Source of the DNA: Spiractinospora alimapuensis
GTDB taxonomy: Bacteria > Actinomycetota > Actinomycetes > Streptosporangiales > Streptosporangiaceae
DNA length: 64,000 nucleotides
Reading direction: 5' to 3'
Assembly (NCBI RefSeq): GCF_018437505.1
Contig: NZ_CP072467.1
Location: 930,001-994,000 of the forward strand
Shown here: positions 57,207-60,342 of the stretch, in pieces
Layout of the letters: every line of letters starts with the position of its first letter
Position numbering within the stretch: position 1 is the stretch's first letter
Position numbers and translations under genes: made by a program
The notes under the pieces: model-generated
Seen by the model: only the letters and a program-made list of their open reading frames with translations
Database searches by the model: none
What the model was told of the DNA's origin: nothing

Positions 57207-57788
57207 TCAGTCACTGAGGGTGTCGATCACCGTCTCGGCGACCTTGCGCATGGTCAACCGACGGTCCATCGAGTTCTTCTGGATCCACCGGAACGCCTCA
57301 GGCTCACTCAAACCATGCTGGCTCTGCAGCAAACCCTTGGCCCGCTCGACCAGTGTGCGCGTCTCCAGACGCTCCGCCATCGAACTGACCTCGGCCTCCA
57401 GCGCGGCACGCTCGGCGTAGCGGCTCATGGCCATCTCCACCGCGGGCACCAGGTCACTCTTGGTGAACGGCTTCACCAAGTAGCTCATCGCTCCCGCCGC
57501 ACTCGCGCGCTCGACCAGGTCCCGCTGGGAGAAGGCCGTCAGTATCACGACCGGAGCGATCCGGTCCGCCGAGATCCGCTCCGCGGCCGACAGCCCGTCC
57601 AGGATCGGCATCTTGATGTCCAGGATCACGAGGTCGGGCTCCAACTCCCGGGCCAGCCGCACAGCGGCCTCGCCGTCACCGGCCTCCCCCACAACCAGAT
57701 AGCCGTCCTCCTCAAGCATCTCCTTGAGGTCCAGGCGGATCAGGGCCTCATCCTCCGCGATGACTACGCGGCTCTGCGTCTTGGTCAC
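57207..57788 (-). CDS. ANTAR-domain response regulator (PdtaR-like)
   Basis: A 193-residue RNA-binding response regulator. The receiver has the acidic pair in VIAEDEALIRLDLKEMLEED, phospho-acceptor Asp in DLVILDIKMPILDGL near 58, Thr/Ser in VILTAFS and Lys in SYLVKPFTKSDL near 107. Residues 130-190 are the ANTAR RNA-binding domain (LVERAKGLLQSQHGLSEPEA, RWIQKNSMDRRLTMRKVAE). ANTAR proteins act by antitermination on paired hairpins. GTG start. It stands between liv genes and pyk, as in several actinomycetes, and no cognate kinase is in the window. Confidence 0.95.
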   Translation of the reverse strand: MTKTQSRVVIAEDEALIRLDLKEMLEEDGYLVVGEAGDGEAAVRLARELEPDLVILDIKMPILDGLSAAERISADRIAPVVILTAFSQRDLVERASAAGAMSYLVKPFTKSDLVPAVEMAMSRYAERAALEAEVSSMAERLETRTLVERAKGLLQSQHGLSEPEAFRWIQKNSMDRRLTMRKVAETVIDTLSD

Positions 57789-57893: not shown

Positions 57894-57979
57894 GCCGGAA
57901 TGGTGGAATGGTAGACACTATGACCTCAAAAGTCATTGTCCGAAAGGGCGTGTGGGTTCGAATCCCACTTCCGGCACCA
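57894..57979 (+). tRNA. tRNA-Leu (anticodon CAA)
   Basis: Acceptor GCCGGAA pairs with TTCCGGC, then A and encoded CCA. The anticodon arm is ATGAC-CTCAAAA-GTCAT giving CAA. A long variable arm (TGTCCGAAAGGGCG) marks a class II tRNA, and the T arm GTGGGTTCGAATCCCAC is complete. The D loop is somewhat short (GGTGGAATGGTAGACAC). Confidence 0.95.
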
Positions 57980-58049
57980 CCCAAGTAGTTATCCACAGAG
58001 AATTCAGGGCGCCTAGACAACATATGCGGCGCCGCGCACGCTCGACGGT

Positions 58050-58850
58050 ATGTATTCACGTGAAACCGTTGATGTCGCCCTTCGACTCCACTCACAAGGC
58101 TTCAACGATCGCCAGGTAGCGGAACGCTGCGGGGTGTCCATCGGCGCGGTACGCCACTGGCGGACGGGTCGGCGCCGCTCACCGGAGGCAGGGCATTCGC
58201 TCGCCGAACGCACCACGTACTGCCCGGTCTGTGCCAACGGTCCACTCGACGGCGAGGCCTACGCATATCTGTTGGGACTTTACCTCGGCGACGGACACAT
58301 CTCGAAATCGCGGCGAGGTGTTTACTTCCTCTCCATTTACTGCGCCAATGAATATCCCACCCTGATGAAAATGTGCGCTGACGCCATGGGGGCCGTTTTT
58401 CCGGTCTCGTCGTTCCAGGTCGCGCGCCCCGGTTGCGTGGAGATCAAATCCGCGTCCAAACACTGGCCCTGTGTCTTCCCGCAGCACGGTCCGGGAATGA
58501 AGCACAGTCGGCGCATCGTGTTGGCGGGGTGGCAGGAGGACGTCGTGACGCGTCACCCCGGGGCGTTGGTACGGGGACTGATCCACTCCGACGGGTGTCG
58601 GTTCACCAACCCGGTGCGGCGTCGGGTGGCCGGCGAGTGGAAGCACTACACCTATCCCCGGTACATGTTCAGCAACACCTCGGCCGACATCATCGCGATC
58701 CTCGGCCACGCGCTGGACCGGTTGGGGATCGCGTGGCGGCTGCGGTGGCGGACCCACACGCACCCCAACCACCAGCCCACCGGGACTCTGTCCGTCGCCC
58801 GACGCGAGTCGGTCACCCGGTTGGACGCGCTGGTCGGTCCGAAACGGTGA
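58050..58850 (+). CDS. HTH-LAGLIDADG protein, homing-endonuclease-like
   Basis: A 266-residue protein in two parts. Residues 1-50 form a helix-turn-helix of the resolvase/Hin type (ALRLHSQGFNDRQVAERCGV, GAVRHWRTGRRR). From residue 65 it has LAGLIDADG endonuclease motifs: AYLLGLYLGDGHISK near 72 and ALVRGLIHSDGCRF near 172, each keeping the last Asp-Gly that coordinates metal. It is free-standing: no intron or intein is present, and it begins 71 bp after tRNA-Leu(CAA). Base use near 58310-58400 is more AT-rich than its neighbours, which suggests transfer. It may be a mobile endonuclease or a domesticated regulator in the manner of WhiA. RBS not strong. Confidence 0.85.
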   Translation: MYSRETVDVALRLHSQGFNDRQVAERCGVSIGAVRHWRTGRRRSPEAGHSLAERTTYCPVCANGPLDGEAYAYLLGLYLGDGHISKSRRGVYFLSIYCANEYPTLMKMCADAMGAVFPVSSFQVARPGCVEIKSASKHWPCVFPQHGPGMKHSRRIVLAGWQEDVVTRHPGALVRGLIHSDGCRFTNPVRRRVAGEWKHYTYPRYMFSNTSADIIAILGHALDRLGIAWRLRWRTHTHPNHQPTGTLSVARRESVTRLDALVGPKR

Positions 58851-58880
58851 CCGGCCCCCGGGGTTTCCCCCGAGGGCCGG
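58851..58880. terminator. Bidirectional hairpin between the LAGLIDADG gene and pyk
   Basis: CCGGCCCCCGGGG and CCCCCGAGGGCCGG pair around TTT with one mismatch. It begins directly after the plus-strand stop at 58850 and lies 32 bp past the leftward pyk stop, so it can end both transcripts. Confidence 0.7.
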
Positions 58881-58911: not shown

Positions 58912-60342
58912 TCACTCTCCGTGCGCGATCACGTCGCCGATCCGGTGCACGCGCAGCGCGTTGGTCGAACCGGGGGATCCGGGCGGGCTGCCCGCGACGA
59001 TCACGACCTTGTCGCCCTTGTGGAACCGTCCACTGGCCAGTAGGCCGTTCTCGACCTGGCGCACCATCTCGTCGGTGTGCTCCACGAACGGCGCGCTGAA
59101 GCACTCCACGCCCCAGGTCAGCGACAACTGGGCGCGGATCGAGTCGTTGGCGGTGAAGGCCAGCAGCGGGATCCGGGAACGGTACCGGGCCAGCCTGCGC
59201 GCGGTCTCGCCACTCATGGTGAACGCGACCAGGGCCTTGGCACCGATGGTGGCACCGACCTCGGCCGCGGCGCGCGCGATGGCTCCGCCCACGGTCTCGG
59301 GAATGCGGTCGAGCATGTGGCTCGCCCGCAGGGTCTCCTCCTCCGCCGCCATGATGATCTGGCTCATGGTGCGCACGGCCTCGACGGGGTACTCCCCCAC
59401 ACTCGTCTCCGCGGAGAGCATCACGGCGTCCGCCCCGTCCAACACGGCGTTGGCGACGTCGGACACCTCCGCCCGGGTCGGGCGGGGCGCGTGAATCATC
59501 GACTCCAGCATCTGGGTGGCGACGATGACCGGGTGCGCCTTGTCACGGCAGCGTTCGATCGCACGCTTCTGCACCATGGGGACCTTCTCCAGGGGCAGCT
59601 CCACACCGAGGTCACCGCGGGCGACCATGACGGCGTCGAAGACGGCGCAGATGTCCTGCAGACGCTCGACGGCCTGCGGCTTCTCGATCTTGGCAATGAG
59701 GGGGACGCGCACCCCGACCTCGTCCATGATGGCGTAGCAGGCGTCGGCGTCGGCGGGGCTGCGGACGAAGGAGAGGGCGACCATGTCGACCCCTCGTCCC
59801 AGCGCCCAGCGCAGGTCCTCGGTGTCCTTCTCGGTCAGCGCCGGGACGCTGACCGCGACGCCGGGCAGGTTGATGCCCTTGTGGTTGGAGACCGTTCCTC
59901 CGACGACCACGCGGGTGTGGACCTCGGTGGCGGTGGTCTTGAGGCACTCCAGGACGATGCGTCCGTCGTCGACGAGGACGCGGTCCCCCGGCTGCACGTC
60001 GCCGGGCAGACCCTTGTAGGTGGTGGAGGCGCGGCGCGCGTCTCCGGGAACGTCCTCGGTGGTGATGACGAACTCGGCGTCCACCTCGAGCTCGGCCTCT
60101 CCCTGGGCGAACGTTCCCAGGCGGATCTTCGGGCCCTGGAGGTCGGCGAGAACTCCGACACTGCGACCGGTGGCGGCCGACGCGGCCCGGACGTTGTCGT
60201 ACAGGGCGTCGTGTGCGTCGTGGTCGCCGTGACTGAGGTTGAGTCGGGCGACGTCCAGGCCGGCCTCAACCAGGCTCTGGATACCTTCTCGACTCGAGGC
60301 GGCTGGCCCCAGCGTGGCGACGATCTTTGCTCTGCGTCTCAC
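58912..60342 (-). CDS. pyk: Pyruvate kinase
   Basis: A 476-residue glycolytic enzyme making pyruvate and ATP from phosphoenolpyruvate and ADP. It begins AKIVATLGPAASSREGIQSL, has RLNLSHGDHDAHDALYDNVR, the active-site Lys block VPLIAKIEKPQAVERLQDIC near 220, the metal-site MVARGDLGVELPLEKVPMVQ, and IVATQMLESMIHAPRPTRAE near 270. The C-terminal regulatory domain carries LVAFTMSGETARRLARYR. Near the usual length. ATG start; the promoter lies in the short gap to 60415. Confidence 0.97.
   Translation of the reverse strand: MRRRAKIVATLGPAASSREGIQSLVEAGLDVARLNLSHGDHDAHDALYDNVRAASAATGRSVGVLADLQGPKIRLGTFAQGEAELEVDAEFVITTEDVPGDARRASTTYKGLPGDVQPGDRVLVDDGRIVLECLKTTATEVHTRVVVGGTVSNHKGINLPGVAVSVPALTEKDTEDLRWALGRGVDMVALSFVRSPADADACYAIMDEVGVRVPLIAKIEKPQAVERLQDICAVFDAVMVARGDLGVELPLEKVPMVQKRAIERCRDKAHPVIVATQMLESMIHAPRPTRAEVSDVANAVLDGADAVMLSAETSVGEYPVEAVRTMSQIIMAAEEETLRASHMLDRIPETVGGAIARAAAEVGATIGAKALVAFTMSGETARRLARYRSRIPLLAFTANDSIRAQLSLTWGVECFSAPFVEHTDEMVRQVENGLLASGRFHKGDKVVIVAGSPPGSPGSTNALRVHRIGDVIAHGE

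Follow-up and report, generated by a model that had tools for sequence, protein, structure and literature searches.

What does a free-standing protein that joins a helix-turn-helix (HTH) domain to two LAGLIDADG motifs do directly behind a tRNA gene? The question is raised by a locus in the window, the whole 64,000-nucleotide stretch of Spiractinospora alimapuensis DNA analysed here, where a 266-residue protein of this kind follows tRNA-Leu(CAA). We use "HEL" as a label for this protein and its relatives. The first-pass annotation had offered two answers, a tRNA-associated mobile endonuclease or a new regulator family. The locus is laid out as follows.

57207..57788, minus strand: left flank, a response-regulator gene that we take to be pdtaR (ORF call); it adjoins the tRNA/HEL pair in most loci of the host's class
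57894..57979, plus strand: tRNA-Leu(CAA) with a long variable arm (class II) and encoded CCA (ARAGORN; Rfam RF00005; class II model)
57980..58049, no strand assigned: 70-bp spacer from the tRNA to the HEL start (sequence read)
58050..58850, plus strand: HEL gene, 266 aa, HTH plus double LAGLIDADG (ORF call, Pfam, AF2 model)
58851..58880, plus strand: GC-rich inverted repeat directly 3' of the HEL stop, a possible terminator (read by eye)
58912..60342, minus strand: right flank, presumably a pyruvate-kinase-like gene, pyk (ORF call); it lies near many class loci

As described at first pass, the HTH-LAGLIDADG frame lies just behind tRNA-Leu(CAA), and ARAGORN and the ORF calls put the gap at 70 bp. 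The tRNA scores 59.8 bits with Rfam RF00005 (57894-57976) and 95.9 bits with class II model R2, whose own training set included this tRNA. The spacer is 59% GC (measured over 57977-58049). The AT-richer codons that had been remarked on are borne out by a GC3 of 0.79 in HEL compared with 0.87-0.90 in five neighbouring genes. The gene also lies outside any intron or intein, as had been claimed: the tRNA is intact, the Pfam matches of HEL include no intein domain, and Rfam at gathering scores finds only the tRNA family, and no intron family, between 57000 and 60000. An intron remnant was considered for this locus and rejected on the ARAGORN and Rfam results. Within its own 5.86-Mb genome, the HEL protein has one match only.

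The protein contains the following elements.

58059..58166, plus strand: N-terminal HTH domain, residues 4-39 (HTH_23; helices 4-15, 20-27 and 31-39 in the model)
58272..58295, plus strand: LAGLIDADG motif 1, LGLYLGDG, residues 75-82, with the invariant catalytic-type D81
58461..58511, plus strand: family signature HWPCVFPQHGPGMKHSR, residues 138-154, conserved in alignments
58575..58595, plus strand: LAGLIDADG motif 2, GLIHSDG, residues 176-182, with the invariant catalytic-type D181 (LAGLIDADG_3)

Pfam detects LAGLIDADG_3 above its cut-off (E 1.1e-8, residues 172-263) and HTH_23 slightly under its cut-off (E 7.4e-5, residues 10-38); no GIY-YIG model is among the Pfam matches. The HTH had been called resolvase-type; the HTH itself stands, but the resolvase label was rejected, as HTH_7 reaches E 0.16 and HTH_23 fits better. 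Across 43 aligned HEL members 22 columns are invariant, D81 and D181 among them, and HEL has the two motifs with retained acidic residues, recognised at first pass, that mark LAGLIDADG homing endonucleases. Between the HTH and LAGLIDADG domains lies a CPxC motif (residues 58-61, 58221-58232) that is common in bacterial members, 26 of which share an invariant C58.

The AlphaFold (AF2) model of the window protein has a pLDDT of 93.1, and the predicted fold is I-DmoI-like. The best structure matches of one predicted HEL model, at Z 15-16.6, are homing endonucleases, including the TliVMA intein (Z 16.6), I-Tsp061I (15.8) and I-DmoI (15.6), with WhiA among them (8dy7, Z 15.5). HEL would thus resemble I-DmoI and I-Tsp061I in fold, in its two motifs and in its acidic residues; those enzymes are intron-encoded, whereas HEL has an N-terminal HTH and a locus in which Rfam finds no intron family. 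The comparison with WhiA, which the first-pass annotation had proposed, points to a fold common to both proteins, and with it to the idea that HEL is a domesticated WhiA-like regulator beside tRNA-Leu, controlling transcription of the tRNA or of its own gene. WhiA (DUF199) likewise combines an HTH with a LAGLIDADG fold in Gram-positives. The dN/dS values of 0.085-0.25 among the 60 closest HEL pairs listed indicate purifying selection, as expected of a regulator. However, the HTH of WhiA is C-terminal and that of HEL N-terminal, both motif aspartates are kept in HEL, its distribution is patchy and mobile, and Pfam and NCBIfam list no WhiA model for it at E values up to 10, with filters that drop most weak matches.

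The association with tRNA-Leu is nearly universal. HEL was matched in 74 of 345 genomes sampled from the host's taxonomic class, and we read all 74 loci: tRNA-Leu adjoins HEL in 72 (66 CAA and 6 UAG, the latter in one genus and at a different locus from the CAA cases). The other two are L089, a weak match (E 7e-5) with no tRNA, and L004, at a contig edge, where the contig ends 98 bp above the HEL start so that any tRNA there would be invisible. A search of relatives found HEL in 19 of 60 genomes; the 12 not previously counted all have tRNA-Leu(CAA). Among named genomes, tRNA-Leu(CAA) lies beside HEL in 80/80 of the top-ranking relatives (out of at least 558), all actinobacterial and partly the same genomes as in the other samples. 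Finally, 141 of 142 non-identical HEL copies matched over at least 230 residues have tRNA-Leu on the locus, the exception being L004; six of the 142 are flagged for odd or short frames. Because the arrangement recurs in relatives, chance is excluded.

The distance between tRNA and HEL is 35-205 bp in 139 of these 141 loci and about 980 bp in two, both second tandem copies. HEL is downstream on the same strand in 129/141 class loci and upstream and divergent in 12/141, and its start therefore faces the tRNA, a point in favour of the regulator. As a general rule this orientation was rejected, since loci outside the class and some phage loci depart from it. Tandem HEL pairs occur at L003 and L009, and also in G411 and G423; in L003 and L009 both copies stand behind a single tRNA-Leu(CAA), and the HEL tree places them on different branches.

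Outside the class we found 11 strong HEL loci (E 2e-70 or better) in 10 genomes: seven at CAA, one at UAG, two at CAG and one at tRNA-Trp. One of these genomes (G541) has two HELs, one at tRNA-Leu(CAA) and the other at tRNA-Leu(CAG). With several isoacceptors and loci involved, HEL follows tRNA-Leu and not one locus. The link is to tRNA-Leu specifically, a point absent from the first-pass annotation. That annotation would have been refuted by relatives lacking a tRNA association, and the opposite is seen: 72 of the 74 class genomes and 10 of the 11 strong out-of-class loci have it. The strong relative at tRNA-Trp (L252:1336-1411) has a tRNA-Leu(UAG) about 1.2 kb off; its location is possibly a change of target. 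Matches excluded as weak, none adjoining tRNA-Leu, were L089, L187-L190 (E 7e-5 to 9e-5) and L235-L239 (E 3e-10 to 8e-5; L236 is the contig of L187). Out-of-class matches at E 2e-5 to 9e-4 were also excluded; the five that were read (L254-L258) are not by tRNA-Leu. A search of the bacterial HEL loci for tRNA-Leu fragments gave none that was convincing.

In Streptomyces HEL is matched in 110 of 150 genomes, with no match in the other 40, and 22 of the 110 matches look broken in sequence, being split, interrupted by stops or limited to 165 or fewer of 252 residues; among the short ones, a few may have diverged instead. We compared HEL and rpoB trees for 23 Streptomyces genomes (24 were taken; G301 was left out for its short HEL match). 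Two of 20 splits are common to both (shuffled mean 0.2, maximum 3), and the distances correlate weakly, with a Spearman coefficient of 0.28, a value reached in 10 of 2000 permutations. Since this is above chance and the family-scale HEL tree agrees with taxonomy, vertical residence is part of the story. Within the genus, the HEL phylogeny nevertheless conflicts with that of the host: HEL subfamily A (11 genomes) requires seven switches when mapped on the rpoB tree, and as a clade it is rejected by the rpoB data (AU p 7.7e-5); G340 and G039 are 98.1% identical in rpoB and 57% in HEL, and the HEL data reject their pairing (p 1.6e-5). These AU values are indicative only, as the groups were named once the trees had been seen.

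Empty sites, which the first-pass annotation had suggested looking for, do exist. Among HEL-free genomes we found the flanking locus in 29 of 30, and tRNA-Leu(CAA) is present in 29/29. HEL is thus gained, damaged and lost, and in many species it is absent or broken with the tRNA kept. This argues against a regulator, as do the two invariant aspartates, and we regard that explanation as very unlikely. Comparing L049, which has HEL, with L195, which does not, the tRNAs are identical and the HEL-bearing segment runs, by eye, from about 22 bp past the tRNA to the 3' end of pyk. Since many mobile elements attach at tRNA genes, it is conceivable that the tRNA is the integration site of a larger integrase-type element with HEL as cargo. 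In this one aligned pair, however, the extra segment consists of HEL and its leader and ends at pyk, and inspection by eye of the ORFs at 53-63 kb revealed none resembling an integrase; such an element is barely credible.

The HEL-adjacent tRNA(CAA) is itself variable: it either has the usual long arm of class II or belongs to class I, with a variable loop of 5 nt. Class I sequences fold into a sound cloverleaf, with 99.0% of cells pairing in 34 sequences and 16 of 20 pairs changed on both sides. Comparisons of close relatives, restricted to alignment-checked pairs because some HEL-minus labels mark duplicate or truncated loci, indicate that sister species hold different tRNA+HEL cassettes between conserved flanks. 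In L007 and L101 the upstream flanks are 97.6% identical and the HELs 90%, and the tRNA with its near flanks is of class II type at one locus and of class I type at the other. In L060 and L071 (the latter the G301 copy with a short HEL match) identity is 91-100% on the pdtaR side, falls to 21-75% over a stretch that opens about 85 bp ahead of the tRNA, closes about 600 bp past the tRNA start and comprises the tRNA and the first half of HEL, and beyond this is 83-100%. Likewise, L020 and L021 are 38-80% identical from about -83 to about +620 and have recovered by about +920. As a control, CAG, GAG and UAA tRNA-Leu are 98-100% identical in Streptomyces sister pairs; in the same two pairs tRNA-Leu(CAA) is 61% and 68% identical, and tRNA-Leu(UAG), comparable in one pair, is 73% identical. 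Such tracts are consistent with conversion of a HEL-lacking allele in a cross.

The class of the tRNA is not strictly tied to HEL, as L007/L101 and two further results show. On the HEL tree (141 rows) it switches 24 times. In the 23 Streptomyces genomes, subfamily A has three class I and eight class II tRNAs and subfamily B 12 and none (Fisher 3.4e-4), and on independent pairs the association is 3:0 with one tie (p 0.25, not significant). The short arm was also tried as a mark of HEL and failed: the 29 HEL-free loci include 23 class I and six class II tRNA-Leu(CAA). Class I tRNA-Leu is common, with short-arm model matches (E 1e-16 or better) in 38 of 41 genomes (28 loci read, all short-arm tRNA-Leu), so its presence alone does not indicate HEL. 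Searching six genomes with both tRNA models, we saw no isoacceptor represented by class I and class II genes at once; neither list included UAG of G182. In the window genome UAG and UAA are class I and CAA, CAG and GAG are class II, and with both models no long-arm UAG or UAA was found there. Its short-variable-loop tRNA-Leu(UAG) and (UAA) lie at L270 and L280 (G000:C1:2394506 and 4671715).

HEL is also found in phages. A first viral scan gave 16 relatives, 12 strong and four weak. In 11 of the 12 strong cases ARAGORN places a tRNA-Leu (UAA, CAA or UAG) beside or within HEL, and in the twelfth, L175, tRNA-Leu(UAG) was read by eye just upstream, so that the survey of neighbours proposed at first pass gives 12/12 here, beside the 80/80 of the named genomes. 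L176, L177 and L178 are near relatives, which lowers the number of independent cases. No tRNA lies on the loci of the four weak relatives. A second scan gave 20 relatives: the same twelve strong contigs; a new type on three contigs (L232-L234) with tRNA-Met adjoining and tRNA-Leu(UAA) about 0.8 kb off; and five weaker ones in which no tRNA was seen. Against named phage and plasmid collections the window protein had no match; three HEL relatives gave one weak match among named phages (E 2e-4), to a gene annotated as a DNA helicase.

Some phage copies lie beside pieces of tRNA-Leu, all read by eye. The HEL frame of L185 is flanked by a 5' part that ends after the D-arm and a 3' part with T-arm and acceptor; L181 and L182 have 5' fragments upstream of HEL, ending at GGTAGACA; and L184 has a somewhat longer 5' fragment beyond its own complete tRNA-Leu. 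The fragments end at or just past the D-arm, which bears on the candidate target. At gathering scores Rfam found only the tRNA family in four phage loci. A complete short-arm tRNA-Leu lies in frame inside the HEL ORF of L182:4794-5561 (UAA) and L185:5001-5738 (CAA), between the HTH and LAGLIDADG parts; it is possibly a built-in replacement. Phage tRNA arrays contain both HEL relatives and tRNA-Leu genes, which would also suit a host defence nuclease that cuts the tRNA-Leu genes of incoming phages and spares a resistant host allele, as would the conserved active-site residues and purifying selection. PADLOC, however, gives a single weak match (E 0.0086, 17 residues of the HTH), and phages bear HEL too, as a selfish element would predict; we think a defence role highly improbable.

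HEL is not the only nuclease gene in this position. At tRNA-Leu(UAG) of G301 lies an HNH-motif protein unrelated to HEL (L368:1643-2707, minus strand), which matches HNH_3 (7.2e-5) and HNH (0.0012) slightly under the Pfam cut-offs. By eye, it has repeated HTH-like segments. Of 150 Streptomyces genomes, 90 have a relative with E 1e-15 or better, and in the best-matching 30 loci (L384-L413), all Streptomyces, tRNA-Leu(UAG) adjoins in 30/30. The closer type (at least 50% identity to the G301 protein) has a class II tRNA in 16/16 loci, the more distant type a class I tRNA in 12/14; the Fisher value of 1.1e-6 is indicative only, because the loci are related and the groups were chosen afterwards. 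This gives a second, independent case in which a nuclease gene goes with a variable tRNA-Leu.

These data bear on a further explanation, that diversifying selection on tRNA-Leu, for example by phage or toxin nucleases, acts through ordinary recombination, with HEL a passenger or later beneficiary. Classes I and II do alternate with and without HEL, and tRNA-Leu(UAG) is highly variable in Streptomyces too. Such selection would, however, leave unexplained why HEL tracks several tRNA-Leu isoacceptors into phages and other classes, and why an unrelated HNH protein stands at UAG. We consider it very unlikely.

We think it likely instead, on the sequence evidence, that HEL is a free-standing homing endonuclease that targets tRNA-Leu genes and replaces the tRNA allele. 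In this model, the HTH would aid DNA binding, and D81 and D181 in the pseudo-symmetric LAGLIDADG core would serve to cut a tRNA-Leu allele that lacks HEL or is unlike the donor's. Repair from a HEL-bearing donor would copy the donor tRNA allele along with HEL, so that the resident tRNA-Leu would be overwritten by an uncut allele. Repeated rounds would flip tRNA-Leu(CAA) between class II and class I at one locus while most other tRNA-Leu stay fixed. The proposal draws on the tRNA-Leu association, the intact active-site residues, the mobility within Streptomyces, the broken copies and the empty sites visible in these genomes, as well as on the cassette replacement between conserved flanks and the tRNA-Leu fragments beside some phage copies; we infer from these the cleavage by HEL, its exact target and the resistance of the linked tRNA allele. 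The tRNA-associated mobile endonuclease suggested at first pass is thus strongly supported by sequence evidence, in particular the tRNA-Leu association and the empty sites. Counting against the homing model are the taxonomy-like HEL tree at family scale, the above-chance correlation of HEL and rpoB distances in Streptomyces, the lack of convincing tRNA-Leu fragments in the bacterial loci, the loose tie between tRNA class and HEL, the occurrence of short-arm tRNA-Leu where HEL was not found, the varying orientation of HEL, and the locations of L252 at tRNA-Trp and of the phage copies L232-L234 at tRNA-Met.

We extend the model more tentatively, at somewhat less than even confidence, to both unrelated nucleases: HEL and the HTH-repeat HNH protein may be cut-and-replace gene drives on essential tRNA-Leu genes, each destroying the resident tRNA-Leu and installing its own uncleavable allele. 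HEL would act at CAA, CAG and UAG, and in phages at UAA, and the HNH protein at UAG in Streptomyces. Together they would rebuild the actinobacterial tRNA-Leu set, switching class II and class I in both directions and passing alleles between phage and host.

Homing endonucleases are textbook selfish genes. The homing model accounts for the facts through the known behaviour of free-standing enzymes of this kind, for which SegB offers a parallel in the portions of the source available (PMC13096335). According to these, SegB, from the tRNA region of phages T4/T6, is a free-standing homing endonuclease of the GIY-YIG type whose cleavage peaks lie inside tRNA genes, with the reported motif RAWTSGAAC (PMC13096335); by our comparison this motif resembles the complement of the T-loop. 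Like HEL, SegB is a free-standing nuclease gene adjoining tRNA genes; it is GIY-YIG and described there in phage (PMC13096335), whereas HEL is LAGLIDADG plus HTH, tied to tRNA-Leu and mainly on bacterial chromosomes. Mycobacterial phage-like tRNA gene clusters, as far as the accessible part of their description goes, also pair a homing-type nuclease, an HNH enzyme, with an unusual short-variable-loop tRNA-Leu(UAG) (PMC6582537). Unlike HEL loci they are large and have an HNH gene, and that part describes no HTH-LAGLIDADG protein or cassette replacement (PMC6582537). In listings and passages of open-access literature, we found no description of the HEL family or of tRNA-Leu turnover.

HELs are apparently a family of selfish DNA-cutting enzymes found almost only at tRNA-Leu, in actinobacteria and phages, and judging from the loci compared, their gain and loss go with replacement of the tRNA gene. 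A HEL drive would make testable why CAA and UAG diverge so strongly between the two Streptomyces sister pairs examined while CAG, GAG and UAA do not. If HEL does drive allele replacement, essential tRNA genes would be a battlefield, the divide between class I and class II tRNA-Leu would be fluid over evolution, and nature may offer a set of meganucleases with specificities for tRNA-Leu.
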